Assembly: GCF_000701365.1 (NCBI RefSeq)
Contig: NZ_JNIK01000002.1
Coordinates: 186,001 to 250,000, forward strand
Source: Blastococcus sp. URHD0036
Lineage (GTDB): Bacteria > Actinomycetota > Actinomycetes > Mycobacteriales > Geodermatophilaceae
Direction of reading: 5' to 3'
DNA: 64,000 bases
Shown: positions 2,183 to 57,832 of the stretch, in pieces
Layout of the letters: each line of letters begins with the position of its first letter
Position numbering within the stretch: the stretch's first letter is position 1
Notes under the pieces: model-generated
Database searches by the model: none
The model's input: the letters and a program-made list of their open reading frames with translations, nothing else
What the model was told of the DNA's origin: nothing
Program-made: the position numbers and the translations under genes

Positions 2183-2200
2183 ATCCTGGATCCAGCATAC
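2183..2200. promoter_or_regulatory. Palindromic operator ATCCTGGAT with adjoining CCAGCATAC
   Basis: A perfect ATCCWGGAT core lies at 2183-2191, about 230 bases before the CoA ligase. The 17 bases TCCTGGATCCAGCATAC (2184-2200) recur exactly at 56140-56156, upstream of an amidohydrolase on the same strand. Read leftward, the block starts GTATGCT, and TATGCT could be a -10 box running directly into the operator. Confidence 0.55.
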
Positions 2201-2377
2201 TCCTCGAGGTGCTCGCCCTGGGTAGCCTCCGCCGGCTCCGGCCAGGGACGGTCCACCCGCCCCGAGACCTCAAGGAGCACACCCGCCGACGGCGCGGTGC
2301 CGGACAACCTCGGTCTTGGCACCGTCCGCCTTCTTGCCGGTGGCCGACACGCGCCCCGGTCAATCGGACTCACTCAT

Positions 2378-3823
2378 CTAGGAGTCGGTCGGCAGCGGGG
2401 AGAGTGACCGCGGGGCGCCCACGACGGCGGCGCGGCGGGCGACGCGCCGCGGGTCGGGCATGACCCGGGTGGCCAGTGCGGCGACGACCATGATGACGGT
2501 GAGCAGCAGGAATCCCGTGGTGTAGCCGCTCTCGGTCGGGATACCTCCGGGCGGGGCGGTCGAGGTGACCACGGTGGCCATCGTGGCGGTGCCGATGGAG
2601 CCGCCGATCGTGCGGATGTTGGCGTTCATCCCGCTCGCCGCGCCGGTCTGCTCGCGCCGGACAGAGGTCACGATCACATTGGCCAGCGCAGCCTGCATGG
2701 TGCCGGTGCCGAACCCGAAGAGGACGAAGGAGACCAGCAGCTGCCAGTGCTCGTCGTGCGCCACGGTGAACCCCGTGTATGCCAGCACGCTGATCAGCGT
2801 GCCGGCGGTGACGATGTTGCGGGAGCTGAAACGCCGGCGCAGCACCCCGGCGGAAAGACCCGCGCAGAACCCCGCGGCGGCCTGCGGCAGCAGCGCGAGA
2901 CCGACCTGGTTGATCGACGAGCCGAAGCCGTAGCCGGCCGACGGTGGCGTCTGCATGAGCTGGGGGAGGAAGGCGAACGCGGCGAAGGTGGTCAGCCCGA
3001 CGCAGAAGGCGATCAGGTTCGCCGTCCAGACCGCGCGCAGCCGCATCATGCGCATATCGATGAGCGGTTGCGCCGACCGCGTCTCGACGGCGATCCAGCC
3101 GGCCAGGAGGGCGACGCCACCGCTCAGCAGCGCCAGCACCGGGGGCGACCCCCAGCCCCACGCGGTGGCCCGGCTGACCCCGAGGAGGACGCACACCAGC
3201 CCGCCGGAGAGCAGCAGTGCAGCCGGGACGTTGACCCGGCCGGGTGTACGTGTGCGTGACTCCGGGATCACCCGATGAGCGATGGCAGCAGCGACCACCG
3301 CGACCCCCATGGGCAGCCAGAAGAGCCAGTCCAAGCCCAGCGCGGAGTCGATGGGGCCGGCGATCACCACGCCGGCCGCGGAGCCGACGGCAAGGAGCGA
3401 CGAGAGCGCGCCGATCGCGCTCGCCACCCCGGCGTCGGGAAACTCGTCGCGCAGGATGCTGTAGCCGAGCGGGACGATGCCGCCGCCGACCCCCTGCAAC
3501 GCCCGGCCGACAATCATCAGCGGCATCGCGCCGGCCACCGCCGACAGCAGGCAGCCGAGGCTCAGCAGCAGCAGCACGCCGACGAACAGACGATGCTTGC
3601 CGAACATGTCGCCGAGCCGCCCCACGATGGGCGTGGCCACCGCCGCGGCCAGCAGGTTCGCCGTCAGCACCCAGGTGACGTCGGCCTGGGTGGTGCCGAG
3701 CTCGGCCTGGATCGTCGGCAGCACCGGGATCACCATCGACTGGAGCAGCGCGTAGGTGAAGAATCCGCACGCCAGGACCGCGGCGATCACCCGATGCGAC
3801 CTCCGGCCCACCTCTTCGCCCAC
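2378..3823 (-). CDS. MFS transporter, DHA2/EmrB-like
   Basis: A 481-residue integral membrane protein of the major facilitator superfamily. The first helix (about residues 11-32) is followed by a periplasmic stretch and the motif-A loop GRLGDMFGKHR at about residue 75. Length and pattern fit the 14-helix DHA2 drug:H+ antiporter branch. The start is GTG 3823, with GAGGAG 7 bases upstream. The frame extends further upstream but reads as arginine-rich non-coding sequence. It is divergent from the D-aminoacylase at 4101; the shared 277-base interval contains an operator-like site at 3899. Inference: export or uptake of a substrate or intermediate of the neighbouring catabolic genes. Confidence 0.85.
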   Translation of the reverse strand: MGEEVGRRSHRVIAAVLACGFFTYALLQSMVIPVLPTIQAELGTTQADVTWVLTANLLAAAVATPIVGRLGDMFGKHRLFVGVLLLLSLGCLLSAVAGAMPLMIVGRALQGVGGGIVPLGYSILRDEFPDAGVASAIGALSSLLAVGSAAGVVIAGPIDSALGLDWLFWLPMGVAVVAAAIAHRVIPESRTRTPGRVNVPAALLLSGGLVCVLLGVSRATAWGWGSPPVLALLSGGVALLAGWIAVETRSAQPLIDMRMMRLRAVWTANLIAFCVGLTTFAAFAFLPQLMQTPPSAGYGFGSSINQVGLALLPQAAAGFCAGLSAGVLRRRFSSRNIVTAGTLISVLAYTGFTVAHDEHWQLLVSFVLFGFGTGTMQAALANVIVTSVRREQTGAASGMNANIRTIGGSIGTATMATVVTSTAPPGGIPTESGYTTGFLLLTVIMVVAALATRVMPDPRRVARRAAVVGAPRSLSPLPTDS

Positions 3824-3898
3824 GCGCCAACTCCTCGTCCCACTGGTTGTCGCCACCAACTGCCCACTGTGACAGGCCCATAGTGCGTAGAAGCCTGA

Positions 3899-3907
3899 AT
3901 CCTGGAC
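3899..3907. promoter_or_regulatory. Operator-like site ATCCTGGAC
   Basis: One mismatch from the recurring ATCCWGGAT palindrome. It sits in the divergent interval between the MFS gene and the D-aminoacylase gene and could serve both. On the + strand a TGTAAC box follows about 10 bases later. Confidence 0.4.
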
Positions 3908-4100
3908 ACGACCTGTGTAACCTGCGCCATAACTGGCCGCGCGTCGCTCGCCGCCTCCAGTCGACCAGCACTCCCGGGGGCCCATGACCGAGGCCTCCGC
4001 ATCGCAGCCATCTGCGACGACGGGGTGCGGCACTCCAACTGAATCCACAACTCGCAGACGTAGTGCCCCACTGCTGCGGCACGACGGAATGAGGGGAAGA

Positions 4101-5822: not shown

Positions 5823-5847
5823 GCGAGGGAGTCCTGCCCCTCGCTTA
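5820..5847 (+). terminator. Hairpin terminator overlapping the D-aminoacylase stop
   Basis: A perfect 10-bp stem: TAAGCGAGGG (5820-5829) pairs with CCCTCGCTTA (5838-5847), and the left arm contains the TAA stop. No T-run follows, as is common in high-GC actinomycetes. It also faces the leftward korB gene. Confidence 0.7.
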
Positions 5848-9807: not shown

Positions 9808-9966
9808 CTCACACGTCGGAACGGGATGTCCTTCAGGTCAGCGGGCCGACGGCCGCATGTGCGTCGGCCGAACACCTCCGTCGCGGGTCTCGGCATCCGA
9901 AGTGGAAGGGACATCAGACCCAGCCGACCGCACACCTACATCGGACGCCATTTCCACCGTGCGAGA

Positions 9967-9994
9967 ATCTTACATCCAGGATCCAGTCAGTCAA
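9967..9994 (-). promoter_or_regulatory. Sigma70-type promoter with operator in its spacer
   Basis: Reading leftward: -35 TTGACT (9989-9994), a 16-base spacer containing the perfect palindrome ATCCAGGAT (9974-9982), then -10 TAAGAT (9967-9972). Start would be near 9960, leaving a leader of about 150 bases before DoxX and korAB. An operator between -35 and -10 implies repression. Confidence 0.7.
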
Positions 9995-10126
9995 CCGTCA
10001 GTCTTGCTGTCACCCACGGACACCGACAGCGCCGCGGCCGTCCTCTCAGATCTCGGCAGTGCTTGCTGTACTGCCCGGACAGGTTGGTCAAGCGGGTGAT
10101 GGGCGGGCGCCGGTCGGTCGCGGGGG

Positions 10127-10911
10127 TCATGGGGGCCGGGAGGATCGAACGAGAGCGACCCGCCCTGCGAGGAGGTCGACGTCGACCAGGCCGTCCCACT
10201 CGGCTGCTGCGATCAACCGGAAGGTGAATCCCCGCTGTCGCAGCGCCCCCACCGAGGCCGACTCATGGCCTTGCAGCCAGGTCAGTAGTTCTTCCTGTGT
10301 TCGGCGGACGGACGGCGTCGAGGACCGGACACGCATCGCCCGGGTCGACGAAGCGGTGGGTCGATCCGCGCTGTCCGGCGCGCCAACCATGCAATAGCCG
10401 TGGCGGAGGCACGGGACCAGCGCACCAGGTTCGGGGCTGGGTTCCGGGTCGGGAATCTGAGCACGGTTCCGCAGCGCAGCACCACCGTGAACATGGAGCC
10501 AGGCCTCTCACGTCGCGGACACCCGCGGGCATCCGGCGGGTACCGCTGTGGACCTTTGCCGCTCGACCATCGCGCTCACAGCTGGAGCGCAGCAGTAGCG
10601 GTGCTGTGGTTGTGTCTCGGGAGCGCCGCCGATGCGTCGTCGTCCAGGACGACCTCAGCGCACATCTCCGTCGCTCGAACGACGGGTGCCCCCGCCGCGT
10701 GAGCCGCGTCGGGAATTCGCCCCGCCCCCCCACCGCAAACCTGCGCGATCTGTCATCGCCGAGCGCCCGCACGTGCGCCACCGTCGCGAGCGTCGCCACC
10801 ACCCGGGCCTGAAGACCTCGCGACCCCAGCAGGACCAGGCACCTCGTCCACGTGATCCACCGAGAACGGGCGACGACGTATGCGGCCGACGTCGGCCCTC
10901 CGGCGCACGGT
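10127..10911. other. Region without a confident gene; possible decayed small gene
   Basis: On the minus strand two short frames look slightly protein-like but lie in different phases: MFTVVLRCGTVLRFPTRNP from ATG 10494, and TQEELLTWLQGHESASVGAL then GFTFRLIAAAEWDGLVDVDL ending at 10127. They may be pieces of one broken gene. I recognise no family. No operator or strong hairpin was seen in the interval. Confidence 0.3.
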
Positions 10912-11259
10912 TCAGGGAATCCGCCGGCCGCGGCGCACCAGGAACCGAGGACGAGGGAGTTGGGTCATCAAGCGGCCGTCCACGGTGAGCGATCCGGGTC
11001 CTGACTGCGTGCAACGCACCTCGAGTCCCGACCGCTCGTCCCGGTAGACCTCGCCGGCGACTGCGCCCACCACCGTGCGGGATCCCACGGACCGCTGCGA
11101 ACAGGGTACGTACGGCCCGGGGACCATCTCCCGGCCCGCGCACTCGAGCACGACAGGGCGCTTCGCGGCCCGAACGACCACGACGTCGGTCACGCCCTCC
11201 CCACACGTCAGCCGCTGCCCTGGCTGCAGCGCCGGGGGATGTCCAGCGTCTACGACCAC
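10912..11259 (-). CDS. Small cysteine-containing hypothetical protein
   Basis: A 115-residue protein starting at GTG 11259 with a perfect AGGAGGT about 8 bases upstream. It has four cysteines: LTCGEGVTDVVVV, VVLECAGREM, YVPCSQR and LEVRCTQSGPGSL. The LTCG...VLEC spacing resembles a short metal-binding ribbon such as the desulfoferrodoxin N-terminal fold, but with single cysteines per knuckle. It lies 92 bases downstream (on its strand) of the near-operator GTCCAGGAT at 11352. Function unknown. The strong ribosome site and non-shadow composition support a real gene. Confidence 0.6.
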   Translation of the reverse strand: MVVDAGHPPALQPGQRLTCGEGVTDVVVVRAAKRPVVLECAGREMVPGPYVPCSQRSVGSRTVVGAVAGEVYRDERSGLEVRCTQSGPGSLTVDGRLMTQLPRPRFLVRRGRRIP

Positions 11260-11351
11260 CCTGCCGACCTCCTATGCGAGCAAACCCAGGCCCCGAGGAC
11301 CGGCAGATGTGCTGCCGTTTCACCCGACGTCCATCCTCGTCCCAGAACTGT

Positions 11352-11360
11352 GTCCAGGAT
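11352..11360. promoter_or_regulatory. Operator-like site GTCCAGGAT
   Basis: One mismatch from ATCCWGGAT; read leftward it is ATCCTGGAC followed directly by ACAGTT, a possible weak -10. It lies about 95 bases before the small cysteine protein at 11259. Confidence 0.45.
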
Positions 11361-11479
11361 ACATTGTGGACCGGGTTTCCCTACCCCACACCGCCGCTAC
11401 AGCCAGTGCCGACACGCCCGCCGTCGGGAACTCGGCGAAGGCGGCTCCCCAACGGCTGGTCGTCCTGGTCCGGCATTTC

Positions 11480-12160
11480 GCACGGCTTTCCGCGGCAGTA
11501 GTACCCCCAGACCATTGGCGATATCGTGCATGGGCGACGAGGCCCACCGCAGCGTCGACGTCGGCTGCCTCGAGCACGCCGACGGTGACGATCGCGTGGT
11601 CGGCCATGAGTCCCGGCGTGGCCTCGACCAGGAAGGCCGCCGCCTCACCGGCGTCCCCGAAGACGTGCATTGCGCCGAAGTCCATCGCGCTCTTGCGCTT
11701 GAAGGAGTTCGGGTCGGCGACCACGACGCGGCCGCGCCCGAGAGCGCGGCACCCTGGAAAGGGTTAGCCCGACCCCGTCGGCCCCGAGCACCACGACGGT
11801 GTCACCGGGCTGGACCTTGGCCGCGCGCACCGCGCTACCCCAGCCGGTCGGTACGGCGGCCAAGTCGAAGTCGATCTCGTCAGGCAGCGGCAGCACCGAG
11901 TACTCGGAGACGACCATCCGCTCGGCGAAGGCGCCCAGCGCGCAGAAGGCGCCCAGCTCCTCGTCACCGGCGTGGAACCAGTGGGTCTCGTCGGCCAGCC
12001 GCCCCGTCCCGGCGTGGCGGCCGTGGTCGCAGATATCTGGCCTACCGGAGGGGCAGAAGGGACACACGCGGCACGCCGGGATGGACGTCGTGGCCAAACG
12101 GTCGCCGACGGCGACCCGCTCGACGTCCGCGCCGACGGCCTCCACGATCCCGGCAGGCAC
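11480..12160 (-). pseudogene. Zinc-dependent alcohol dehydrogenase pseudogene
   Basis: Two out-of-phase pieces of a medium-chain Zn alcohol dehydrogenase. The first (to about 11760) has VAVGDRLATTSIPACRVC, the structural-zinc cysteine cluster, AAVPTGWGSAVRAAKVQPG and VVVLGADGVGL. The second (about 11724 leftward) resumes with VADPNSFKRKSAMDFGA and HAIVTVGVLEAADVD. The Rossmann segment between them is shortened and shifted, the N-terminal catalytic domain including the first zinc cysteine is missing, and the C-terminus drifts out of phase. It is related to the intact NDMA-type alcohol dehydrogenase at 19628-20740. It cannot make a working enzyme as read. Confidence 0.8.
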
Positions 12161-12233
12161 TCCTGTAGGGAGCTGACCGGGCGCGTGAACTCGATCGCCG
12201 CCTGTGGTGCGGCTGCCGTCAGATCGGTGCCGG

Positions 12234-12647
12234 CTAATTCTGATGCTCTTCTCTCCTCACGGAGCGGAGGCCCGCGGCGCGGATCTCCGGTGAGTCTTGG
12301 GATGGCCGCTTGAACCCGCCGGTCGTGACCGTCAGGTGGGCCATCGGGCCATCGTCGGCCGCACCGTGGGTGTGGAGTTCGTCCGGTGGCGTGATGACCA
12401 CGTCGCCGGGACCGATCCAGACTCGGTCGCCCGCGGTCTCGACCCAGCCGTTACCGGAGACGACGACGATGAGCTGCCCGCCGTCGTGCGAGTGCGGCCG
12501 AGCGGCGGCCCCCTGGTCCAGGGTCACCAAGCCCACGTCGAGGGCGTCGACGTTGGCAGGTCCGGCCAGCCAGTTCACCGACAGACCTTGACCCGCAGGT
12601 ACCGCGGCGATGAGGTCGTCGACCTGGTCGGATCGGATGAGCTCCAT
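12234..12647 (-). CDS. Cupin-domain protein
   Basis: A 137-residue single-domain cupin. The metal-binding motif 1 is seen in AAARPHSHDGGQLIVVVSG (two histidines and a following Gln/Glu position), and GDVVITPPDELHTHGAA supplies the motif-2 histidine. Such small cupins bind a metal and act as dioxygenases, isomerases or ligand sensors; which applies here cannot be read. ATG 12647 lacks a clear Shine-Dalgarno. It lies directly upstream (on its strand) of the broken alcohol dehydrogenase at 11480-12160, inside the decayed zone. Confidence 0.75.
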   Translation of the reverse strand: MELIRSDQVDDLIAAVPAGQGLSVNWLAGPANVDALDVGLVTLDQGAAARPHSHDGGQLIVVVSGNGWVETAGDRVWIGPGDVVITPPDELHTHGAADDGPMAHLTVTTGGFKRPSQDSPEIRAAGLRSVRREEHQN

Positions 12648-13269
12648 GACGCAATGAGACGCGCGACGACGTCCCTGTGCAAACCTCTGTGACGGCGACC
12701 CGCCTCGAGGAACCGCTGTGGGCGCGACGTTCCGCGGCGGCGAAGCCGACAGATGCACCGTGTCGGGACTGTGCTGTTCGGATAGGACGACGACGCTTCC
12801 ACGAGGTCGCTCGCCCGACCATCGAGGATGTCGTCCACATCGTGGTCGTGTGGATGCTGGTCCGACTCCTGCCCGACCCCGACTCGCTGAGCCGTCAGAG
12901 GAGCCAGCTCCCGTGAATTGGCGGCGCGTCGTCGGCTCCCCGCGAGCCGGCCGTTCCGTGCACGCAAGGGCCCCACTCCCTCACAGCGCACCGCCCCCCG
13001 CCTCGGCCTCGGCCTCGGGATGCAAACGCCTCCGACCGGTCGGTCGGCGGGGCGGAGCCACCGCGCCGACCCGCACAGGCGCCCATTGGTGCACGACGCA
13101 ACCTTCTGGTATCCAGGATCCGTTCTGTTCATCGGCTTCCTGGCGACCGCCGTCTGCAGAGAGGCCGTGCGCGAAACCCCTGCGTTCCGCCTACAGAGTG
13201 GCCGATACGCGGGCCTGAGTGAATCCCCGATACACGACCCGGTCGACAGATTGGCCGCAGGAGTAGCTG
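12648..13269. other. Long non-coding interval with one operator
   Basis: About 620 bases between the leftward cupin and the rightward MDR gene. No frame shows family resemblance on either strand. The only recognisable element is the palindrome at 13111-13119. The size and lack of coding signal fit a decayed gene in a pseudogene-rich zone, but nothing identifiable remains. Confidence 0.5.
13111..13119. promoter_or_regulatory. Palindromic operator ATCCAGGAT
   Basis: A perfect core flanked by GGT and CCG, about 150 bases upstream of the MDR oxidoreductase start and about 460 bases from the divergent cupin. Confidence 0.55.
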
Positions 13270-15339: not shown

Positions 15340-16203
15340 TCAGGTCCGCCCGGGCAGCTTGACGCCGGGGGCCACGACCGTGGCGAAGCGGCCGTCGACG
15401 AGTTGGTTCGGTTCACGACGTTGCCGGTGAACTCGGTCCGGCACTGGGCCAGGTGGACGATGGCCGGGTTGATCGCCGACGGCGGGACAAATGTGGCAAG
15501 CCATTCCGGGTCGGTGGTGTGCTTCGCGGCGCTCTCGGTCAGGAGGCTCATGGGCCGGATGGAGTTGACGCTGATGTTGCGGTCGTAGAGCTCGATCGCC
15601 AGGCCCGCGTGAGCTGCTCCATGCCGGCCTTGCCCACGGCGTGGCTGATGAGCCGGCCCCCTCCGTACGTCGGATCGCCAGCGGTCGAGGACATGTTGAT
15701 GATGCTGCCGCCGTCGGCCGACAGGTGCGGGATGGCGTAGCGCGCACATAGGAACGGGCCCCGGATGTGCGTGGCGATCGTCTCGTCCCAGCGCCCGAGG
15801 GACTTGGACTGGACCGTTTCACCCGGCCAGAAGAGGCCCGCCTTTGTTGACGACCACGTCCAGCCGGGCGAACTCGGACACGCACGCCTCGATGGCGGCC
15901 TCGACCTGGGTCCCGTTGCGGACGTCGCAGACGAGCGGGAGGGGCCGTACCACCGACGGCCTGGACCTCCAGCGCTGTTTTCCCGGCCGTCCCCGGCCCG
16001 GTGCCTTCGGCCCGGCCGGTAAGCGCAACCGTGGCTCCGGCCTCGGCCAGGCCGATGGCGATCGCCTTGCCGATGCCCTTGCTCGCCCCTGCCACGAAGG
16101 AGACCTGCCCGGCCAAGGGAGCGTTCGAGGCATCCACGGTTGTGACCTCATCGTCTGGCTCGGCTGTCTTCGTGACCCAGCTCACCGGGATGTTATCGTC
16201 CAT
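15340..16203 (-). pseudogene. Short-chain dehydrogenase pseudogene with several frameshifts
   Basis: SDR-family similarity runs across the segment but changes phase at least four times (near 15955, 15838, 15608 and 15418). In order: VSFVAGASKGIGKAIAIGLA (Rossmann glycine motif), VCDVRNGTQVEAAIEACVSE with VVVNKGG in place of the NNAG motif, then GGRLISHAVGKAGMEQLT (catalytic region), AIELYDRNISVNSIRP and QLVDGRFATVVAPGVK. The ATG at 16203 overlaps the operator at 16202. No full-length product is possible as read. Multiple small indels in one gene suggest relaxed selection, though local sequence error is the alternative. Confidence 0.85.
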
Positions 16204-16210
16204 CCTGGAT
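16202..16210. promoter_or_regulatory. Palindromic operator ATCCTGGAT
   Basis: A perfect core extended to CATCCTGGATCCAGG, placed between the broken SDR (leftward, its ATG overlapping the site) and the CMD-family gene (rightward, 40 bases on). A GTTATCG sequence just upstream could contribute a + strand -10. Confidence 0.6.
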
Positions 16211-16250
16211 CCAGGCCCGGGTGGGCATGGACGAATCATCGAGGGGTGAC

Positions 16251-24554: not shown

Positions 24555-24583
24555 CTGTACATCCTGGATTCACTGCGAGACAG
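24555..24583 (-). promoter_or_regulatory. Promoter with ATCCTGGAT operator
   Basis: Reading leftward, weak -35 TGTCTC (24578-24583), a 17-base spacer containing the perfect palindrome (24562-24570), then -10 TACAGT (24555-24560). The palindrome abuts the -10 exactly as at 9967-9994. It would drive the aldehyde dehydrogenase and SDR. Confidence 0.55.
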
Positions 24584-24718: not shown

Positions 24719-25960
24719 TCACCACTGGATCGTCGTGCGGTAGTCCCGCTTGCCCGTCGCGATGTCCTCCGGGACGTCGATCTGGAAGAGCTTCGCGGCG
24801 TTGCGCCAGGTGATCTTCTCCACCTCGTCACGCGGGATGTCGCGCAGCAGGTCCCGGAGGGCCGGCTGCGTGGCGGGCCAGCTGCCGTCCGCGTGCGGGT
24901 AGTCGACCTCGACAGTGATCTTGTCGATCCCCACCCGGTCGCGCAGAGTGAAGCCGGCCGGGTCGTCGAAGGTGCAGAACCAAAAGTTGCGCGCGAACAC
25001 CTCGGACGGCGTGAACTCCTTGTCCTTCCACCCGTCCCACTCCGGGGCCATGCCGGCGTGCGTCTCGATGTACTTCAACCGGTCGTAGATCATCGGCACC
25101 CAGCCGATGCCGCCCTCGGCCAGGCTGACCCTCAGGTTGGGGAACTTCGAGAGGACACCGGAGTAGAGCCAGCTCAGCGAAGAGACGAGCGCGTAGGCGG
25201 GGAACAGCGCGACGAAGATCTCGGGCATCACGCCGGCATCGACGTCCCGCATCGACCCGGACGAGCCCGTGTGGAGGGCGATGACGGTTCCCGTCTCCTC
25301 GCAAGCGCGGAGGAACGGGTCGAAGTGCCCGCTCGCCAGGCCCGGCAGTCCGAGCTTCGACGGGATCTCCGGGAAGCTGACAGCCCGCACGCCGCGCTCG
25401 GCGTTGCGGTAGATCTCCTGCGCGGCGATCTCGCCGTCCAGCAACCACGGGATCTGCAGACCGATGATGCGGTCGGGGTAGGGGGACTTCCACTCCTCGT
25501 GGTACCAGTCGTTCCAGCCCTTGACGCAGGCGAGACCCAGCTCGTGGTCCTTCAGCTCCGCGAACCGCGCCCCGCCGAAGCCTGCGAGACGGGAGGGGAA
25601 GCACAGCGAGGCGTAGACCCCGTTTAGGTCCATGTCGCGGATGCGCGCGTCGATGTCGAAGCAGCCCTTGCGGAGCTCCTCGAAGTTGGTCGGCTCATCG
25701 TTCCACTCCTCTGGCGGACGCCCGGCGACTGCGTTCAGACCCATGTTGTGGAGGACCAAGTCCTCTATCTGCCAGGACTGGATACCGTTCATCTCGATGA
25801 TGCGCGGCCCACGGTCACCGAACTTCGCGGGGATCCGGCCGTCAAACATGGTCGGCGGCTCGACGAGGTGGTCGTCGGTCGAGATGACCAGAAACTCGAG
25901 GTCCTTCTCCGGCACCGGCTCGGGCAAGAAAGTCACGGACCGTTCAGCGGTGCTGGTCAT
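24719..25960 (-). CDS. Amidohydrolase (PF04909 type, metal-dependent TIM barrel)
   Basis: A 413-residue amidohydrolase_2 protein. VISTDDHLVEPPTMFDGRIP supplies the N-terminal D-H metal region (DxH variant). IALHTGSSGS and SLAEGGIGWVP are mid-barrel metal/base strands, and VEVDYPHADGSWP contains the late Asp ligand. The family includes ACMSD-like decarboxylases and hydrolases acting on aromatic or cyclic acids. ATG 25960 has AAGGAGATTCGC. It is the first gene of the leftward run to 18663 and a paralogue of the gene at 54942 (shared DDHVIEPP/DDHLVEPP and YPHADSxWP-like motifs). Confidence 0.88.
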   Translation of the reverse strand: MTSTAERSVTFLPEPVPEKDLEFLVISTDDHLVEPPTMFDGRIPAKFGDRGPRIIEMNGIQSWQIEDLVLHNMGLNAVAGRPPEEWNDEPTNFEELRKGCFDIDARIRDMDLNGVYASLCFPSRLAGFGGARFAELKDHELGLACVKGWNDWYHEEWKSPYPDRIIGLQIPWLLDGEIAAQEIYRNAERGVRAVSFPEIPSKLGLPGLASGHFDPFLRACEETGTVIALHTGSSGSMRDVDAGVMPEIFVALFPAYALVSSLSWLYSGVLSKFPNLRVSLAEGGIGWVPMIYDRLKYIETHAGMAPEWDGWKDKEFTPSEVFARNFWFCTFDDPAGFTLRDRVGIDKITVEVDYPHADGSWPATQPALRDLLRDIPRDEVEKITWRNAAKLFQIDVPEDIATGKRDYRTTIQW

Positions 25961-26086: not shown

Positions 26087-26103
26087 TTGGATGTAGGATC
26101 CAA
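26087..26103. promoter_or_regulatory. Diverged operator, TTGGAT-N5-ATCCAA
   Basis: TTGGAT (26087-26092) and ATCCAA (26098-26103) form 6-bp inverted arms around GTAGG, 127 bases before the amidohydrolase start. It shares the GGATCC/GGAT elements of the window-wide motif but not its exact core. Confidence 0.4.
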
Positions 26104-31344: not shown

Positions 31345-31377
31345 GAACTCTCCTCAGCTATGAGATTGGCCACGCGA

Positions 31378-31406
31378 ATCCAAGATGCTGTATCCAAGCT
31401 TGTCAA
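31378..31406 (-). promoter_or_regulatory. Strong promoter of the binding-protein gene with operator half-sites in the spacer
   Basis: Reading leftward: consensus -35 TTGACA (31401-31406), a 17-base spacer, -10 TTGGAT (31378-31383). Two GGAT-type half-sites (ATCCAAGCT at 31392 and ATCCAAGAT at 31378) fill the spacer and -10. The predicted start near 31371 leaves a 27-base leader containing the ribosome site. Confidence 0.65.
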
Positions 31407-33054: not shown

Positions 33055-34668
33055 TCAGTCGCTCAGGCTCGCGGCCGGGTCGATCACCAGGTCGACGAGC
33101 ACCGGACCTTGCAGATCGGCGAAGACGTCCTCGAGCTTCTCGAGGTCCTGGACTGTCCGGGCCGTGTACCCCCGCGCTCCAAAAGCCTCGGCCAGACCGG
33201 CCAGGTGCGGCCACTGCGTTCGCGAACCCTCCGGGTTGAGGCCGTACTCGGCGAGCTTCACCCACTCGGCGCCATAGGCTCCGTCGTTCGCGACGACCAC
33301 GATGAGCGGAAGGCGCTCCCGCACCGCGGTGCTCAACTCGACCACGCCCTGCATGAACCCGCCGTCTCCGACTACCGCCACTGTCGGGCGATCGGGGCGT
33401 GCGACTGCCATGCCGACCGCGGTACCGACGCCCAGCCCGATGGACCCGAAGTTCACCGAGTGCATGAACCCGCGGGGGTCGTCCCCGTGCACAAACTTCC
33501 AGGGAGTGGTCATGGACCGTCCGGCGTCGGTCACGAGGTTCCTCTCACGTGGGAGTACCCGGTCCAGGGTGACCATCGCGGTGCGGAGGTCGATCGTGTC
33601 CGTGCCGCTGCGGTCGGTGAAGGATCTCTCGGGAGCCCACTCGGCGAGCTCCCGCGCGAGCGTGTCGTTGGAGCGGGACGACGGCTCGACCTCGGCGGCC
33701 TTCAGGTGATCCAGCAGCTGCGCAGCCACCGCGCGCGCGTCGCCCACGATCGAGATCTCCGCCGGGCGATGGGCATTCAGCCTGGCGGCATCCCGGTCCA
33801 CGTGGACGACTCGCGCGTTCTGCAGCAAGTGACCGCGATCGGTCGTCCACTGATTGAGGCTCGCGCCGAAGGCGAGGACGCAGTCCGCCGTCGCGAGGTA
33901 CCCCGACGCCACTCCGGTGGAGACCGTTCCGCTCACCCCGAGGTCGAGGCGGTGGCCGCGGAAGAGGTCCCGGGCGAGCAGCGTGGTGGCCAGCGGTGCG
34001 CCCAGGTGCTCGGCCAGCTCCACGAGCGTGTCGCGCGCCCCCCCGTGCACGGCTCCCCTACCCGCAAGCACCACCGGTCGCGACGCGCTGAGCGCGAGAC
34101 CGAGGGCGGCGTCGATCGATTCCTCGTCCGCGTCGTGCGGGCCCGCGAGCTCAACCCGCGCCGCGAGCTCGTCGCTCCCGCACTCGTCCTCGAGGAGGTC
34201 GAACGGGACGTCGAGGACGATGGGCCGACGCTCCGTCAGCGCCCGCCGGAACGCCCGGGCGGCGTCCGGAGCAGCGGACGCGCCACTCCAGACGCGCTCG
34301 TAGCCGGCCCCCGCAAGTGCGGCCACGGCCCGCACGTCGATGTACTGGATGTGGCTCGCGACGCCGGGCGTGTCACCGGTGACGAGCACGACGGGCTGAT
34401 TCCCGCGGGTCGCCTCCACCAGGCCTGTCATGGCGTGCGTGAGAGCCGGGCCGTGGGTGACCGTGGCGACGCCGACGCAGTTGCGCGCCGACGCGTACGC
34501 GGCGGCCATCAGCAGGCTGCTCCGCTCGTCGACGACAGGGACGAACCTGCCGCCCTGCTGGCTGACGAAGTCGGTGATGTAGAGCATGTTCGCGTCGCCC
34601 ATCAGGCCGAACAGGGTGTCGACGCCCTGCTCGCTGAGCGTCCGCGCTACGGCGTCGTGAACCTGCAC
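33055..34668 (-). CDS. Thiamine-diphosphate enzyme (acetolactate synthase/benzoylformate decarboxylase-like)
   Basis: A 537-residue ThDP enzyme with the usual three domains. The N-terminal PYR domain carries the cofactor-activating Glu48 in VPVVDERSS. The middle domain includes SRPVVLAGRGAVHGGA. The C-terminal PP domain has the Mg-ThDP motif VVGDGGFMQGVVEL with the downstream Asn-Asp in VVVANDGAYG. It decarboxylates or ligates a 2-oxoacid, possibly an aromatic one, producing an aldehyde or acyloin. GTG 34668 has GGAG 6 bases upstream. Its promoter carries the recurring operator, and the predicted leader is about 29 bases. Confidence 0.85.
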   Translation of the reverse strand: MQVHDAVARTLSEQGVDTLFGLMGDANMLYITDFVSQQGGRFVPVVDERSSLLMAAAYASARNCVGVATVTHGPALTHAMTGLVEATRGNQPVVLVTGDTPGVASHIQYIDVRAVAALAGAGYERVWSGASAAPDAARAFRRALTERRPIVLDVPFDLLEDECGSDELAARVELAGPHDADEESIDAALGLALSASRPVVLAGRGAVHGGARDTLVELAEHLGAPLATTLLARDLFRGHRLDLGVSGTVSTGVASGYLATADCVLAFGASLNQWTTDRGHLLQNARVVHVDRDAARLNAHRPAEISIVGDARAVAAQLLDHLKAAEVEPSSRSNDTLARELAEWAPERSFTDRSGTDTIDLRTAMVTLDRVLPRERNLVTDAGRSMTTPWKFVHGDDPRGFMHSVNFGSIGLGVGTAVGMAVARPDRPTVAVVGDGGFMQGVVELSTAVRERLPLIVVVANDGAYGAEWVKLAEYGLNPEGSRTQWPHLAGLAEAFGARGYTARTVQDLEKLEDVFADLQGPVLVDLVIDPAASLSD

Positions 34669-34703: not shown

Positions 34704-34731
34704 AGTGAACCAGGATCCAGGATGAAGTCAA
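34704..34731 (-). promoter_or_regulatory. Promoter with ATCCAGGAT operator in its spacer
   Basis: Reading leftward: -35 TTGACT (34726-34731), a 16-base spacer containing the perfect palindrome (34715-34723), then weak -10 TTCACT (34704-34709). The layout is the same as at 9967-9994. An extra AGGATCC lies at 34733-34739. It drives the ThDP enzyme. Confidence 0.65.
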
Positions 34732-36358: not shown

Positions 36359-36368
36359 CTGGATCCAG
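36359..36368. promoter_or_regulatory. Operator variant CTGGATCCAG before the dpp-like operon
   Basis: A perfect 10-bp palindrome containing GGATCC, followed by GGGCCCAGG and, 20 bases on, a TACGTT box. It lies 186 bases before the first permease gene and about 300 bases from the divergent acyl-CoA dehydrogenase. The rest of the 36062-36553 interval shows no gene. Confidence 0.45.
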
Positions 36369-36553
36369 GGCCCAGGTTTCTGTACGTTAAGTCACAGCGT
36401 CGGGGCCGGTCGGACCCTGCCGCCACACATGCAGGGAACCAGAGCGCCACACGAGCAAGGAATCAGAATGTCCAGCAGGGCCCACGCCTCCGATCCCGCC
36501 GTGCGTGCGGACCGGCAGACGGTCCGACTCCCCTCCAGCCAAGGAGACCGTTC

Positions 36554-43853: not shown

Positions 43854-44150
43854 ACGGGCTCCTTGATGGTGTACAGCCAGGTGAATGGCGCTGGGCATCG
43901 GACGTTACATGGCCGACGGTGCCTCACACACCTTGCCTGGATGTTGGATGCAGACCGAGTCTTTACCCTGACAGGAACTCGTTGCGCGCAGGGTCACCGA
44001 CGCGCACCTGCTGGAGCGCGCCGCACGCCTCTCGGATCTCAGCCGACCGACCACCCCGGCTTGTCGAGGCAAACACGGGCAGCCACGCGCGCGATCGCAC
44101 CGACGACCGCGGAGGCCGACGTGGACGGCCGGCCGTCCACGCGCGGTGAG

Positions 44151-45816: not shown

Positions 45817-45926
45817 CTGGTCCACTCCTGTTCCCGATGCCGCCCTCGCTGCGGCTGACGTCGAGCAGGGGCACCGCTCGGCTGCATGCCTACACGGAAC
45901 ACCTAGACTCCGGTAACATCCGCAGG

Positions 45927-45935
45927 ATCCTGGAT
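45927..45935. promoter_or_regulatory. Palindromic operator ATCCTGGAT
   Basis: A perfect core, extended to AGGATCCTGGATAC, between a divergent hydratase and CoA ligase. On the + strand a TAACAT box (45914-45919) lies just upstream and the ligase GTG is 24 bases downstream, so the site would cover the transcription start. Confidence 0.6.
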
Positions 45936-45958
45936 ACACCCCATGAAGGGAATGCACA

Positions 45959-50260: not shown

Positions 50261-50290
50261 AGATTACAAGATGTATCCCGCATCCAGCAA
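50261..50290 (-). promoter_or_regulatory. Promoter of a leaderless transcript, with operator-like half-sites in the spacer
   Basis: Reading leftward: -35 TTGCTG (50285-50290), an 18-base spacer, -10 TAATCT (50261-50266); the predicted start coincides with GTG 50254. The spacer carries GGAT half-sites (GGATGCGGGATAC) related to the window-wide palindrome. Confidence 0.6.
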
Positions 50291-52429: not shown

Positions 52430-53751
52430 GCCTCTGCCTTTCCAGCGGCGCCCACAGCGACGACGGACGGGTCGGCCCCCGGCCGGGACCGTTCCGGCGC
52501 CGCCTCCATGACCCGGGCACCTAGCCTTCGGAGCTCGTGGAAGGACATCCCTCGGCCGACGGAGGGCTCCCGCGGGAGACCGAGCGAGCGCTCGGCGATG
52601 ACGTTCTTCACGATCTCGTCCGTGCCTCCCCCGATGGCCAGGCCCGGGGAGATGAGCAGACGTGCGGCCCACTGCTCGGCGTCCGGCTCGGCCGGGTCCC
52701 AGGCCACGGCACTCGACCCGGACAGCTGCACACCCAGCCCGGAGACCAGCTGGATGAACTGAGAGGATGCCAGCTTGTTGAGCGCCCCCTCTGGCCCGGG
52801 CGCTTCACCGGCGAGCACGGCCCGCTTGGCCCGCTCCCTCATCAGCTGGATCACCAGCTCGCCGGTCCAGGCCTCGGCGATGCGCTGCCGCCACACCGGG
52901 TCGTTCGCGAGTCCACGCTCCTGAGCCTCCATCGCGATCATCGTGGCGTTGCCCCCTCGGAGCGCCGTCGATCCACCCACCGACACCCGCTCGTTCGACA
53001 ATGTCGTGCGAGCGCACCGCCACCCGTCGCCCGGCCGGCCGATCACCTGGTCGTCGGGAACGAAGACGTCGTCGAAGAAGACCTCGTCGAACTTCGAGTG
53101 TCCGGTCATCTGACGGAGAGGACGGACGTCCAGTCCCGGGGCCCGCATGTCGACGATCAGCATGATCAGGCCCTCGTGCTTGGGGACCGATCCGTCGCTG
53201 CGAGCAAGCGCGAGGCCGAAGTCCGCCGACCGCCCACCGGAGGTCCAGACCTTCTGCCCGGTAAGCCGCCAGCCCTCCTCGACACGCTCAGCACGCGTGG
53301 CGATCGCGGCGAGGTCGGAACCCGCATCGGGCTCGGAGAACAGTTGGCACCAGAGCTCCTCCCCTCGGAGGAGTCGCGGCAGGTATCGCGCGCGCTGCTC
53401 GGGTGTGCCGTGCACCCGGATGGTGGGACCGCACATGCCGAGCCCGACATTGAGCGGGGCGGTCGGCAGCTCGTACGCGGCGGACTCCTGCGCGGCGACG
53501 ACGTCGTACTGGGGGGACAAGCCCCGTCCCCCTGCCTCCTCCGGCCAGGTGAGCCCCGCGAAGCCGGCGTCGTACAAGGCTGCCTGGTACGCCTTCGCCG
53601 CGGCGATCGTGGCCGCGTTCGTCTCCTCGACGGCTCGAACGGCTGCACCCACCGTGTCCTGAGTAGGCACCCCCGACGCCGCGAGCCAGTCGCGCAGGCG
53701 CGCTCGAAAGGCCGCGAGGTCCCCATCGGCTTGGTGATGGTCAGCCGCCAT
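52426..53751 (-). CDS. Acyl-CoA dehydrogenase (first subunit of a pair)
   Basis: A 441-residue acyl-CoA dehydrogenase. FAGLTWPEEAGGRGLSPQYD, QLFSEPDAGSDLAAIATRAER and LTGQKVWTSGGRSADFGLAL form the FAD/substrate region, and LAIGGGTDEIVKNVIAERSLGLPRE ends the C-terminal domain. ATG 53751 has GAGGAG about 9 bases upstream; upstream frame extension reads as non-coding. Translationally coupled to the second dehydrogenase, and probably one enzyme with it. The promoter region contains a perfect operator at 53785. Confidence 0.9.
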   Translation of the reverse strand: MAADHHQADGDLAAFRARLRDWLAASGVPTQDTVGAAVRAVEETNAATIAAAKAYQAALYDAGFAGLTWPEEAGGRGLSPQYDVVAAQESAAYELPTAPLNVGLGMCGPTIRVHGTPEQRARYLPRLLRGEELWCQLFSEPDAGSDLAAIATRAERVEEGWRLTGQKVWTSGGRSADFGLALARSDGSVPKHEGLIMLIVDMRAPGLDVRPLRQMTGHSKFDEVFFDDVFVPDDQVIGRPGDGWRCARTTLSNERVSVGGSTALRGGNATMIAMEAQERGLANDPVWRQRIAEAWTGELVIQLMRERAKRAVLAGEAPGPEGALNKLASSQFIQLVSGLGVQLSGSSAVAWDPAEPDAEQWAARLLISPGLAIGGGTDEIVKNVIAERSLGLPREPSVGRGMSFHELRRLGARVMEAAPERSRPGADPSVVAVGAAGKAEA

Positions 53752-53779
53752 GTCCAAGAGCTCCTCGATCGATCCCACC

Positions 53780-53793
53780 AGTGAATCCTGGAT
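53780..53793 (-). promoter_or_regulatory. Operator ATCCTGGAT with possible -10
   Basis: The perfect palindrome at 53785-53793 abuts TTCACT (53780-53785, reading leftward), a weak -10 identical to that of the ThDP gene promoter. The start would be near 53773, 22 bases before ATG 53751. TATTTT (53798-53803) is an alternative -10. Confidence 0.5.
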
Positions 53794-54007
53794 TCGAAAA
53801 TAGATGAGCTCTGGACCGGCGTCCATGGTCTGCGCAATGTGCCGTGTGCAGCTGCCGGTCGGCGAGCGGATCCGGCGCCTCACGCAGATGACCGGCGACG
53901 TGACTGGGGCCACGACTGTCGTACGGAAGGTGAACGTTCCGAGCGTCACCTGGCCGATGGCGAGACGGCACGTGACATCGACCATCAGCGCTCGTCCGGT
54001 GAAATCC

Positions 54008-54051: not shown

Positions 54052-54104
54052 TGCGACCGTTCGCGGGACGGTCGTACGACCCGGCCCGGTCCGCAGGCGT
54101 CCTG

Positions 54105-54647: not shown

Positions 54648-54724
54648 CTCAGACCTCCACTCATATTTCCATGGTGCGACAGGCAACCGGCCTGTGCGCA
54701 TGTCACCGACACCCGGTCACGGGT

Positions 54725-54916
54725 TCACTCGACGGTGATGGCGCCCTCAGGGCAGCTGCGGGCCGCAGCACGCGCCGTCTCCAACTGATCGTCCGAGATG
54801 CTCGACTGGAGCACCCGCGCATAACCATCGTCATCGAGTTCTATCAGCCCGGGTGCCATGGCAGCGCACACCCCGTGCGCCTGGCAGAATTCCGAGTCGA
54901 CATTGAGCTGCGGCAC
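54725..54916 (-). CDS. [3Fe-4S]-type ferredoxin
   Basis: A 63-residue ferredoxin with the pattern Cys11-x2-His14-x2-Cys17 ... Cys55-Pro (EFCQAHGVCAAMAP and ARSCPEGAITVE). A His replaces the second cysteine, as in actinobacterial ferredoxins that pair with cytochromes P450. GTG 54916 has AAGGAG 6 bases upstream. It lies 25 bases after the amidohydrolase stop. No P450 or ferredoxin reductase is present in the window, so the partner is unknown; KorAB reduces ferredoxins but usually of a different type. Confidence 0.85.
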   Translation of the reverse strand: MPQLNVDSEFCQAHGVCAAMAPGLIELDDDGYARVLQSSISDDQLETARAAARSCPEGAITVE

Positions 54917-54941
54917 TACGTTCTCCTTGCCGGCGGGTCGT

Positions 54942-56090
54942 TCAGGCGGTCGTACGAGGGAAGTTGAACAGCTCCCGCGCGTTGGTCTCGGCGATCTTGG
55001 CGGCGTCGTCATCAGGGACATCCGCCATGGCCTTGGTAAGGAGCTTGCGACTGTCGGGCCACTGCGAGTCGTTGTGGGGGTAGTCGCCCTCCCACATCAA
55101 CTTGTCGGTACCGATGTGCTCGTAGGTGGCGAGCGCGAAGCGGTCGTCGATGAAACAGCTCCAGAAGTTGCGGTTGAACAGCTCCGTGGGCGACAGCTCG
55201 CGGTGGACGTCGACGCGCGTGCGCTCCCAGGTGTAGTCCATGCGCTCGAGGAGGTAAGGAACCCAGCCCGACCCACCTTCTGCCAGCGCAATCTTCAGGC
55301 CGGGGAACTTGAGAAGCATGCCGGAGAAGATGATCTCCGCGGCGGCGGACATCGAGTTCAGCCCGCACAGAGCGATCGAGACCGCCTCACTGGAGTCCTT
55401 CGACGGCACGACGAGTTCACCGGAGGTTCCGATGTGCATGCACAGCGGCAGCCCGGTCTCCTCAGCGGCATCCAAGAACGGCGCCCAGTGCTCGATGTTC
55501 CACCAGGACGGAAGACCCAGCGGAGCAGGGTTCTCCGTCATGGAGATCGCCTTCGCCCCCTTGGCGGCGGTGCGCCGGATCTCCTCCGCTGCAGCCTGCG
55601 GATCCCACACGGGAGTAATAACCGCGGAAATGAAGCGGTCCGGCGCCGAGCCGGTCCACTCGTCGAGAATCCAGTCGTTGTAGGCCCGGACGCATTCGAG
55701 CGCGAGGTCCCTGTCCTTGCCCTCGAGGAAGCGCGTGCCCGCGAATCGCGGGAAGGTCGGGAAGTTGAGACCGGCGTGCACCCCGTCGGTGTCCATCGCG
55801 GCAACCCGGGCCTTGACGTCATAGCACCCGGGGACCATGTCGTCGTAGTGGCGCGCGTGGAAGTCCTCGCCCGTTCCGTCGGTGCGGAAAACCCGGGTGC
55901 GGGGGCTGCCCTGGAGGTGCAGCGGGTAGAGGTCGCCCTGGTAGGACCAGGCCTGGGTGTGCCCGGGCTGATCGACGATGCGCGGGCCGGCTTCCCGCAT
56001 TGCCGCGGGAAGGCGATCCGACCACACGTTCGGAGGCTCGATGACGTGGTCGTCGACGGAGATCAGCTGGACGTCGTCAGCCAGAGGCAT
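54942..56090 (-). CDS. Amidohydrolase (PF04909 type)
   Basis: A 382-residue TIM-barrel amidohydrolase. LISVDDHVIEPPNVWSDRLP (DxH region), LCMHIGTSGE (metal His), IALAEGGSGWVPYLLERMD and WEGDYPHNDSQWPDS (Asp) are the landmarks. Related to the gene at 24719 but not identical in the metal region. ATG 56090 has GGGAG 6 bases upstream. It heads a three-gene unit with the ferredoxin and cupin, and a 17-base operator copy shared with the CoA ligase at 267-1949 lies about 50 bases upstream. Confidence 0.88.
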   Translation of the reverse strand: MPLADDVQLISVDDHVIEPPNVWSDRLPAAMREAGPRIVDQPGHTQAWSYQGDLYPLHLQGSPRTRVFRTDGTGEDFHARHYDDMVPGCYDVKARVAAMDTDGVHAGLNFPTFPRFAGTRFLEGKDRDLALECVRAYNDWILDEWTGSAPDRFISAVITPVWDPQAAAEEIRRTAAKGAKAISMTENPAPLGLPSWWNIEHWAPFLDAAEETGLPLCMHIGTSGELVVPSKDSSEAVSIALCGLNSMSAAAEIIFSGMLLKFPGLKIALAEGGSGWVPYLLERMDYTWERTRVDVHRELSPTELFNRNFWSCFIDDRFALATYEHIGTDKLMWEGDYPHNDSQWPDSRKLLTKAMADVPDDDAAKIAETNARELFNFPRTTA

Positions 56091-56138
56091 AGCAACTCCC
56101 GGGGTTCTTCGGGCCGGCACGGTCGTCGGCGGCGGTTC

Positions 56139-56156
56139 GTCCTGGATCCAGCATAC
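56139..56156. promoter_or_regulatory. Operator-like site GTCCTGGAT with CCAGCATAC
   Basis: One mismatch in the core (56139-56147). The block 56140-56156 is identical to 2184-2200, including the possible leftward -10 TATGCT. Confidence 0.5.
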
Positions 56157-56188
56157 GCGCGCCTCGATGGGGTCTACAAGCGCCGATG

Positions 56189-57661
56189 CTAGGACGGCAG
56201 GTGCAGGGACTTGATCTGCAGGTATTCCTCGAAACCGAACCGGCCGTACTCGCGGCCGATACCAGATCTCTTATAACCCCCGAAGGGCGCATACACGTTC
56301 GTGGCGGCACCGTTGACGTAGACCGCACCCGTCCGGATCCGCCGGGCGACGAGCTCGGCCCGGGCGACGTCGGCCGACCAGACACCGCCCGAGAGCCCGT
56401 ACTGGGAATCGTTGGCGATCCGGACGGCGTCCGCGTCGTCGCGGTAGGGGATGAGACAGAGGACGGGTCCGAAGATCTCCTCTTGCGCGATGCGCATCGA
56501 GTTGTCGACGCGCGTGAACACGGTGGGGCGCACGTAATAGCCGCGGTCGACCCCTTCGGGCCGGTCGGGCCCCCCGACGAGCAAGGCTGCGCCATCCTCG
56601 AGGCCGGCCCGGATCATGCCGACGACGCGGTCGCGGTGCGCGGCCGAGGCGAGTGGTCCGACCACGGTCGCCGGATCGAACGGATCACCGACCCGCATGT
56701 CTCCCACCACCGCGGAAAGGACCTCCTCGGCAAGGTCCAGCCGACTCTGCGGCACCAACATCCGGGTCAGCGCGGCGCAGATCTGGCCGCCGTTCATGAA
56801 GGCACGCTGCACCCCCTGGCTGACGGCGTCCCGGAAGGCGTCGTCGGAGAGGTCGTCCAGCAGGATGTTGGCACTCTTGCCACCGAGCTCCAGGCCAACC
56901 CGCTTGATCGTGGTGGCCGCAGACTGCATGACCTTCGTACCCGAGGCGGTGGAGCCCGTGAGGCTCACCATGTCCACGTCCGGATGGGCGGACATCGCCT
57001 GCCCGACGGTCGGGCCGATGCCCGGCACGAGATTGAACACTCCAGGCGGGAGACCGATCTCGTCGAGGACCTCCGTGAGCACGTAGGCGTCCAACGGCGC
57101 AACCTCGCTCGGCTTGGCCACGACGGTGCATCCGGCCGCCATTGCATAGGCGACCTTCTTGACCATCTGGTTGAGCGGGAAGTTCCACGGTGCGATCGCC
57201 CCGACCACCCCGACCGGTTCGCGGACGACGAGGCTGTGCTTGATCCGCTCCTCGTAGGCGAAGTCGACCGCCACCTCCGCCGCGACGCGGACGAAGTGAA
57301 CGGCCCCACCGACCTGCACGACACGGCAACCTTCGACAGGCATGCCCGTCTCCCGGGTGATGAGCGTGGTGAGCTCGTCGGCCCGCGCAGCCAGACCGTC
57401 TGCCGCCTTCGCCATCAAAGCCGCGCGCTCACCCACCGGCGTCGCCGCCCATTCGTCGAACGCGGCCCGAGCCGCCTCGACTGCGTGGTCCACATCGGTC
57501 GGATGCCCTTCGGGCGCGCAGCCCATGACCTCCTCGGTCACCGAGTCATAGACTTCGACGACACGGGCGGACGCACTCTCGACCCAACGGCCGCCGATGT
57601 AGACGTGCCGACGATCGTGTCGCCGGTCCCGCTCGGACCCGGCGCCGTGACCCTCGTCCAT
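56189..57661 (-). CDS. Aldehyde dehydrogenase
   Basis: A 490-residue aldehyde dehydrogenase. AIAPWNFPLNQMVKKVAYAM, LTGSTASGTKVM, VGLELGGKSANILL (Glu) and MNGGQICAALTRM (nucleophilic Cys), then QEEIFGPVLCLIPY and FGGYKRSGIGRE. ATG 57661 follows GGTGGAC; a longer in-frame start (GTG 57673) is possible. It oxidises an aldehyde intermediate to an acid. The operator at 57740 is 79 bases upstream and the divergent LLM operon begins at 57935. Its stop is 98 bases from the amidohydrolase start region. Confidence 0.92.
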   Translation of the reverse strand: MDEGHGAGSERDRRHDRRHVYIGGRWVESASARVVEVYDSVTEEVMGCAPEGHPTDVDHAVEAARAAFDEWAATPVGERAALMAKAADGLAARADELTTLITRETGMPVEGCRVVQVGGAVHFVRVAAEVAVDFAYEERIKHSLVVREPVGVVGAIAPWNFPLNQMVKKVAYAMAAGCTVVAKPSEVAPLDAYVLTEVLDEIGLPPGVFNLVPGIGPTVGQAMSAHPDVDMVSLTGSTASGTKVMQSAATTIKRVGLELGGKSANILLDDLSDDAFRDAVSQGVQRAFMNGGQICAALTRMLVPQSRLDLAEEVLSAVVGDMRVGDPFDPATVVGPLASAAHRDRVVGMIRAGLEDGAALLVGGPDRPEGVDRGYYVRPTVFTRVDNSMRIAQEEIFGPVLCLIPYRDDADAVRIANDSQYGLSGGVWSADVARAELVARRIRTGAVYVNGAATNVYAPFGGYKRSGIGREYGRFGFEEYLQIKSLHLPS

Positions 57662-57739
57662 GTCCACCCAGACCTTTCGACAGTGGCTGTTGCCCCGCTT
57701 CGTGGCGCCGCTTCCAAAGATGCGCCTCGCTGGCACCGT

Positions 57740-57748
57740 ATCCAGGAT
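57740..57748. promoter_or_regulatory. Palindromic operator ATCCAGGAT
   Basis: A perfect core with GT/GC flanks, upstream of the leftward aldehyde dehydrogenase. Leftward it is followed by TACGGT, a possible weak -10. Confidence 0.6.
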
Positions 57749-57823
57749 GCAAGGGGGTCGCTAGAGGTGATCAGCTCTTGATCCACCCCTGGGTGGGGTG
57801 TTAGACACCACGCGACGTTCTGC

Positions 57824-57832
57824 ATCCTGCAT
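57824..57832. promoter_or_regulatory. Operator-like site ATCCTGCAT
   Basis: One mismatch from the core, 103 bases before the LLM gene. With 57740 it gives two sites in the divergent interval, about 84 bases apart. Confidence 0.4.

Follow-up and report, generated by a model that had tools for sequence, protein, structure and literature searches.

The 64,000-nucleotide stretch of Blastococcus sp. URHD0036 analyzed here (hereafter the window; contig NZ_JNIK01000002.1, positions 186,001 to 250,000) carries catabolic genes and many copies of a short palindrome, ATCCWGGAT. It is part of an island of about 130 kb located across contigs C2 and C7: the final 444 bases of C2 are exactly repeated at the start of C7, which makes it most likely that the island extends onto C7. 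The island encodes coenzyme A (CoA) ligases, acyl-CoA dehydrogenases, hydratases, a thiolase, P450s, flavin adenine dinucleotide (FAD)-binding oxidoreductases, two CoA-transferases and AtuA parts, together with ATP-binding cassette (ABC) transporters and one MFS transporter. Two tyrosine recombinase genes lie to the left of the first palindrome and a transposase-type integrase gene just to its right; these genes (C2 174042-176741 and 179079-180116) likely mark the left edge of the island. Integration is suggested by these recombinase genes and by the absence of the regulator clade described below from two genus-mates; no tRNA gene was found in the 20 kb to the left of the window. Pfam scans of 44 of the 49 called window genes found no regulator (the five other genes are two short calls, two ABC transporter genes and a gene cut by the right end of the window, whose remainder is AtuA). 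Our comparisons indicate that the full palindrome, TGNATCCWGGATNCA, is very probably the operator of a clade of GntR/FCD regulators, represented on this same island by two intact gene copies and a broken third one, which would repress the island promoters until an effector binds.

Perfect copies of ATCCWGGAT begin at nine positions of the window (2183, 9974, 13111, 16202, 24561, 34715, 45927, 53785 and 57740). Dinucleotide shuffles contain 0.34 copies on average and none of 100 shuffles reaches nine. The nine copies listed in a preliminary description of the window are all present, with a shift of one base for the one placed at 24562. The enrichment also holds at the scale of the 5.18-Mb genome: 13 of its 15 perfect copies (11 on C2 178235-250761 and two on C7) lie within the island, i.e., 2.5% of the genome, and the two others (one on C4 and one on C13) are both located within called genes.

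Sites were scored with a 15-column matrix trained on island sites, which makes the counts obtained with it on the own island partly circular; the consensus counts, the whole-genome search, the other genomes and the de novo ranking are independent of this training. Sites of at least 12 bits number 38 in 130.7 kb of island, compared to 0-5 in five Markov shuffles and only one in 58.6 kb from other parts of the genome. The logo of 122 sites of at least 15 bits from seven islands or loci, picked by the matrix itself, gives the full operator as a 15-letter palindrome, TG-N-ATCC-W-GGAT-N-CA, beyond which the information drops sharply; among these sites, five pairs overlap at 7 bp spacing. Flank counts at 13 island sites (T at -7, G at -6 and the mirror image) bear out the initial remark that flanking TGN and NCA extend the palindrome. 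The operators found in the window, given without strand, are the following:

2180 to 2201, two overlapping operators of 15.5 and 19.2 bits (centres separated by 7 bp), preceding the CoA-ligase/acyl-CoA dehydrogenase unit whose start is at 1949 on the minus strand
3896 to 3910, operator (18.2 bits), between divergently oriented genes for an MFS transporter and an amidohydrolase-3
9964 to 9985, two operators (13.1 and 21.2 bits), ahead of the DoxX gene
11349 to 11363, operator (21.9 bits), inside a decayed stretch
13108 to 13122, operator (18.0 bits), before a zinc alcohol dehydrogenase gene
13220 to 13234, weak operator (13.3 bits)
16199 to 16213, operator (19.1 bits), before a CMD-family gene
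24558 to 24572, operator (21.2 bits), before an aldehyde dehydrogenase gene
26088 to 26102, operator (18.3 bits), before a DitZ-like amidohydrolase-2 gene
31375 to 31389, operator (14.9 bits), before an ABC substrate-binding protein gene
34712 to 34726, operator (16.7 bits), before a thiamine diphosphate (ThDP) enzyme gene
36360 to 36374, operator (14.6 bits), separating an acyl-CoA dehydrogenase gene from an oligopeptide-type ABC transporter operon
43938 to 43952, operator (17.7 bits), before an enoyl-CoA hydratase gene
45924 to 45938, operator (21.9 bits), between divergent hydratase and CoA-ligase genes
50272 to 50286, operator (16.4 bits), between divergent units
53782 to 53796, operator (20.7 bits), before an acyl-CoA dehydrogenase pair
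56136 to 56157, two overlapping operators of 16.0 and 18.9 bits, ahead of the island-shared amidohydrolase gene
57737 to 57751, operator (20.9 bits), between the island-shared aldehyde dehydrogenase gene and an F420/LLM enzyme operon
57821 to 57835, operator (16.7 bits), in the same intergenic region as the 57737 site

The stretch at about 9.8-13.3 kb of the window (9850-13250) is decayed and devoid of intact called genes; it contains dehydrogenase-like frames in pieces and the strong site at 11349, with more sites flanking it.

According to a simple in-house gene caller, whose starts are uncertain, all 22 window sites of at least 13 bits lie outside the genes of the final calls, in a window of which 78% is called coding, and 21 of the 33 called transcription units have such a site within 350 bp upstream. 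The median distance from site to start codon is 113 bp (quartiles 56 and 164; 99 site-gene pairs, with a search limited to 250 bp). Besides perfect copies, six one-mismatch copies and four more diverged sites had initially been listed; all exist and nine of these ten score 14.6-21.9 bits, the tenth (21824) being weak (10.4 bits) and not counted here. Eight further one-mismatch copies of the window had been left out of that list: three (2190, 34708 and 56146) overlap better sites, four (927, 35258, 38727 and 41509) are within called genes and one (12821) is in the decayed stretch, the latter five looking like chance occurrences. As stand-alone evidence, one-mismatch 9-mers (14 in the window compared to about 3.7 expected per 64 kb) were set aside because they are weak, with 300 copies genome-wide.

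Candidate regulators are encoded on C7, about 47-55 kb beyond the right end of the window, provided that the two contigs truly join at their 444-base overlap. Three related GntR/FCD genes were found there, the two intact ones being 65% identical to each other:

C7 45293 to 46024, intact GntR/FCD gene, with a weak site upstream (11.3 bits at 45213)
C7 52876 to 53607, intact GntR/FCD gene, with a 16.6-bit site upstream at 52803
C7 22.4 to 23.2 kb, broken GntR/FCD copy, with a 16.6-bit site upstream at 22437

The broken copy has no intact N-terminal frame and its readable part is 84% identical to an intact copy. The regulator has an N-terminal GntR winged helix (PF00392, E 2.8e-8 with a gene call starting late; also present in the predicted model) and a C-terminal all-helical FCD domain (PF07729, E 4.3e-13). 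The AlphaFold model (13 sequences; mean predicted local distance difference test score of 84.3) is predicted to have the GntR/FCD fold, and its best PDB fold matches include the FCD regulators VanR Atu1419, PmiR, McbR and AlkR. FCD domains of this subfamily have a metal-binding Asp/His set. In 13 sequences, H205 and H227 are invariant and H143 and H147 nearly so, and the usual Asp seems replaced by His143.

The two intact proteins were used to scan one genome per species, which yielded 80 loci. The 11 closest ones (39-50% identity, E 3e-40 or better) belong to Actinomadura (two), Frankia, Mycolicibacterium, Mycobacterium, Nocardia (two), a Jatrophihabitans bin, an Acidimicrobiales bin and Actinomycetota bins (two), the other 69 being at E 2e-22 or weaker. 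These 69 distant FCD loci were found via shared peptide patterns and are not a random sample; 26 of them were used in the tree, where clade support against them is 0.998, and in the residue comparison. R15, D18, Q41, T53 and N74 are constant in 16 clade members, and the clade wing is mostly NGNxTVEV, while 22 of the 26 other sequences have G at position 76. The operator co-occurs with this clade. Sites of at least 18 bits are present in all 11 close loci (44 in 187 kb) compared to one of the 69 distant loci (one in 1124 kb; Fisher p 1e-12). In the 350 bp preceding the tblastn match, which is not the true gene start, a site of at least 15 bits was found in seven of the 11 close loci and none of at least 13 bits in the 69 distant ones. 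Furthermore, in these upstream regions of the 11 relatives, with the own genome excluded, ATCCNGGAT ranks first among 256 odd palindromes, both at zero and at one mismatch.

With one mismatch allowed, TGNATCCWGGATNCA has 13 (own), 15, 11, 14, 5, 8, 15 and 16 matches in eight clade genomes, compared to 0, 0, 1, 2, 1, 0 and 0 in seven control genomes whose FCD proteins are all distant. Of the 13 matches in the own genome, 11 are on the island and two are beside paralogues of island genes. One of the latter (C1 271036), near a contig end, is 42 bp before a P450 gene 83% identical to a C7 P450 gene; the other (C6 40363) is directly downstream of relatives (54-85%) of the window MFS gene and precedes a 141-amino-acid call without any match. 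Around the former site, C1 268500-272724 contains a second copy of the island P450, of part of an alcohol dehydrogenase and of a FAD-binding gene (81-97%). In the five other clade genomes with complete listings, 52 of 61 matches are on the contig of the regulator: 11/11 in Frankia canadensis, 5/5 in the Jatrophihabitans bin, 12/14 in Mycolicibacterium hodleri, 12/15 in Mycobacterium sp. URHB0044 and 12/16 in Nocardia fusca. The 58 relatives of the own genome have 0-5 matches each; none has the clade and two have a 35-36% match. A co-occurrence test within these close relatives was set aside since the clade is present in the own genome alone among the 59 compared, and this set was used as negatives. 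One genome of the same order without the clade (G049) contains five near-consensus matches on its contig C1, four of them of the form TGGATCCWGGATGTA, which are perhaps a repeat or sites of another factor.

Gene by gene, only three of 103 own-island proteins have reciprocal best matches in each of the four other islands examined (Frankia, M. hodleri, Mycobacterium sp. URHB0044 and N. fusca): the GntR/FCD regulator of C7 45293 and the products of two window genes:

54942 to 56000, minus strand, amidohydrolase-2 gene common to all four other islands
56189 to 57526, minus strand, aldehyde dehydrogenase gene common to all four other islands

Proteins that are reciprocal best matches between islands are 25-76% identical. 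In these four islands, 62 of 70 sites of at least 15 bits lie outside called genes. On the 991-kb plasmid pRWAY01 of Rhodococcus sp. WAY2, all nine consensus matches are within 632-699 kb, with the regulator at 687 kb, and 18 of 19 sites of at least 13 bits are outside the genes listed in the PLSDB gene table, which is incomplete by its own note; neighbouring genes encode amidohydrolases, thiolases, hydratases, an oligopeptide-type transporter, DoxX and an aldehyde dehydrogenase. Conservation of the motif, on which the preliminary description depended, was thus found: from sequence comparison, it is kept at related islands of other genera (Frankia, Mycolicibacterium, Nocardia and Rhodococcus).

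The predicted binding of the clade to the palindrome is well supported by these comparisons. Repression is proposed from comparison, family and site position, because the nearest folds include repressors, the sites are located at a median of 113 bp before the starts and TATCCT within the operator mostly points gene-ward. Regulator dimers would bind the palindrome in the promoter regions of about two thirds of the called window units and of a third of those on C7, as well as at the promoters of their own genes. Bound dimers would block transcription, and an intermediate of the island pathway would bind the FCD domain and thereby lift the block. The effector of FCD proteins is usually a small acid. 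The initial idea of one repressor controlling a large catabolic regulon is retained for the operator and the regulon, which are backed by five other islands and by match counts in further genomes, and is better replaced by one clade of paralogues as to the protein, repression being deduced by comparison.

Several observations weigh against this proposal. Sites 3896 (MFS gene) and 50272 (SDR gene) are just inside longer gene versions in the first-pass calls, which tempers the earlier statement that all sites lie between genes or at gene starts. The claim that the motif marks most promoters agrees with 21 of the 33 window units; the 12 others have no site of at least 13 bits within 350 bp; some of these may be downstream genes of longer operons. 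C7 is poorer in strong sites (8 of 26 units), and its intact regulator gene at 45293 has only the weak 11.3-bit site. Four of the 11 close loci have no upstream site of at least 15 bits (best scores of 12.1 for L063, 10.8 for L061, 7.0 for L066 and 2.0 for L067), L061, L063 and L067 carrying sites farther up. The TATCCT orientation test is post hoc and the own island contributes only 2 vs 1; at 0 to +7, backward TANNNT hexamers are commoner (13 vs 7 gene-ward; 61 sites). Finally, the operator does not follow the GT...AC consensus of the GntR family (PMC4494728), and in the 122-site logo no GT/AC pair is conserved at the usual spacing of 3 nt.

Among other explanations, the most serious one, which we nevertheless consider unlikely, is that the operator does belong to the GntR clade but that the protein activates, or both activates and represses. 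The median distance of sites to starts fits repression and activation alike. However, TATCCT is gene-ward in 18 cases and backward in 4 (61 sites; p 0.004), mostly from mycobacterial and nocardial sites, and TANNNT hexamers resembling -10 boxes are also more frequent gene-ward than backward within the left half of the site and immediately ahead of it (18 vs 5 and 17 vs 8 in the same 61 sites), in spite of the reverse at 0 to +7; the position of the operator relative to the -10 box is only suggestive. The closest predicted folds, which include repressors such as VanR Atu1419, also point to repression.

It is still less probable that another transcription factor, for example of the TetR or MarR type, reads the palindrome and that the GntR gene merely co-travels on the islands. 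Three TetR-type genes are indeed located on C7 and a MarR gene is annotated in the Rhodococcus locus; furthermore, a PF00440 search of five genomes leaves TetR genes in other islands possible among matches beyond those listed. However, the reciprocal-match test decides between them: the three TetR genes of the own island all lack a reciprocal best match in each of the four other islands, compared to four out of four for GntR. Moreover, the motif is the top palindrome upstream of the GntR relatives, whereas distant FCD loci are devoid of it.

It is very improbable that the palindrome is a mobile or structural repeat, such as an insertion relic or a methylation or recombination site: recombinase and transposase genes are present at the left edge of the island, but the information drops sharply outside 15 bp, the sites are upstream of genes and islands whose proteins share only 25-76% identity keep the motif at their own promoters. 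Chance or base composition can be practically dismissed: ATCCWGGAT is found in 23-39 copies in each of seven control genomes of 4-11 Mb, but it reaches nine copies against 0.34 expected in the window, with 13 of 15 in 2.5% of the genome.

Compared to known systems, the GntR/FCD regulators of the island share with the FadR/FCD subfamily (VanR Atu1419, PmiR, McbR/YncC and NanR) the winged helix, the all-helical FCD domain and a palindromic operator, but they form their own clade, with a different wing, an ATCC-W-GGAT operator without GT...AC core and 5-16 near-consensus sites per genome. FCD-type regulators usually control one or few operons. The regulon described here is unusual both in its operator and in its size. 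It resembles those of KstR and KstR2, actinobacterial TetR repressors that have many palindromic sites over a large steroid catabolic cluster, with other motifs; one regulator with many sites in a large catabolic cluster is common to both, an FCD protein and ATCCWGGAT being specific to the present case. The best NCBIfam match of the regulator is PhnR of Burkholderia (TIGR03338), with 97.6 bits, far below the cut-off of 271.5; one PEP-mutase superfamily gene is located on C7. According to PMC4494728, operators of the GntR family are usually palindromes of the NyGT...ACNy type, from which NanR and BioR depart. PMC11881993 places rhodococcal naphthalene genes under GntR-type control, with a gene set that differs from that of the island.

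Two amidohydrolases of the island match PDB chain 8uyr (DitZ) best (E 5e-53 and 4e-76). Two window genes were matched to PDB entries as follows:

24719 to 25960, minus strand, DitZ-like amidohydrolase-2 gene (E 4e-76 to PDB 8uyr)
33055 to 34668, minus strand, ThDP enzyme gene (best matches in PDB: 2-hydroxyacyl-CoA lyase and cyclohexane-1,2-dione hydrolase)

From its name, DitZ of 8uyr presumably belongs to the dit cluster. The dit clusters of Pseudomonas and Paraburkholderia, devoted to resin acid/diterpene catabolism, have DitZ-like amidohydrolases, P450s, CoA ligases and dehydrogenases that are also found on the island. A DitZ-like amidohydrolase and the ring-hydroxylating dioxygenase ditA1 are marks of these clusters. 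Among ten island proteins compared to NCBIfam, two have no match, seven have none over the cut-off among the matches listed and one passes (an F420/LLM enzyme, TIGR03621). A cyclic terpenoid or a similar alicyclic acid fits the enzymes of the island, and we tentatively suggest it as the substrate.

Among the titles and abstract openings listed in searches of openly licensed papers, none gives a description of the motif or of the regulator clade. These results bring about 130 kb of otherwise anonymous ligase, dehydrogenase and hydrolase genes together as a single defined regulon, for which a regulator is proposed and an operator predicted; at least eight other genomes or records contain counterparts. 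The motif could be used to delimit the pathway in other actinobacteria and to find its substrate via de-repression, and may serve in sensors as part of a new operator-regulator pair. An FCD specificity outside the published GT...AC rule is suggested as well, with matching changes in the wing, which makes the recognition code testable. More broadly, an undescribed FCD clade with the non-canonical operator TGNATCCWGGATNCA might govern mobile islands of 40-130 kb across actinobacterial genera, on integrative elements and megaplasmids, each with its own regulators and with related routes for plant-type cyclic terpenoids or alicyclic acids built around a DitZ-like amidohydrolase and an aldehyde dehydrogenase, a view that is at present conjectural.

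Two minor observations concern the ends of the sequences. An acyl-CoA dehydrogenase gene is repeated at 98-99% at the right end of C7, the right end of C8 and the left end of C15, and this repeat probably breaks the assembly at these ends. At the right end of the window, AtuA and AtuA-ferredoxin-like domains are carried by two neighbouring genes (62977-63998 and the adjoining stretch to the right of the window).

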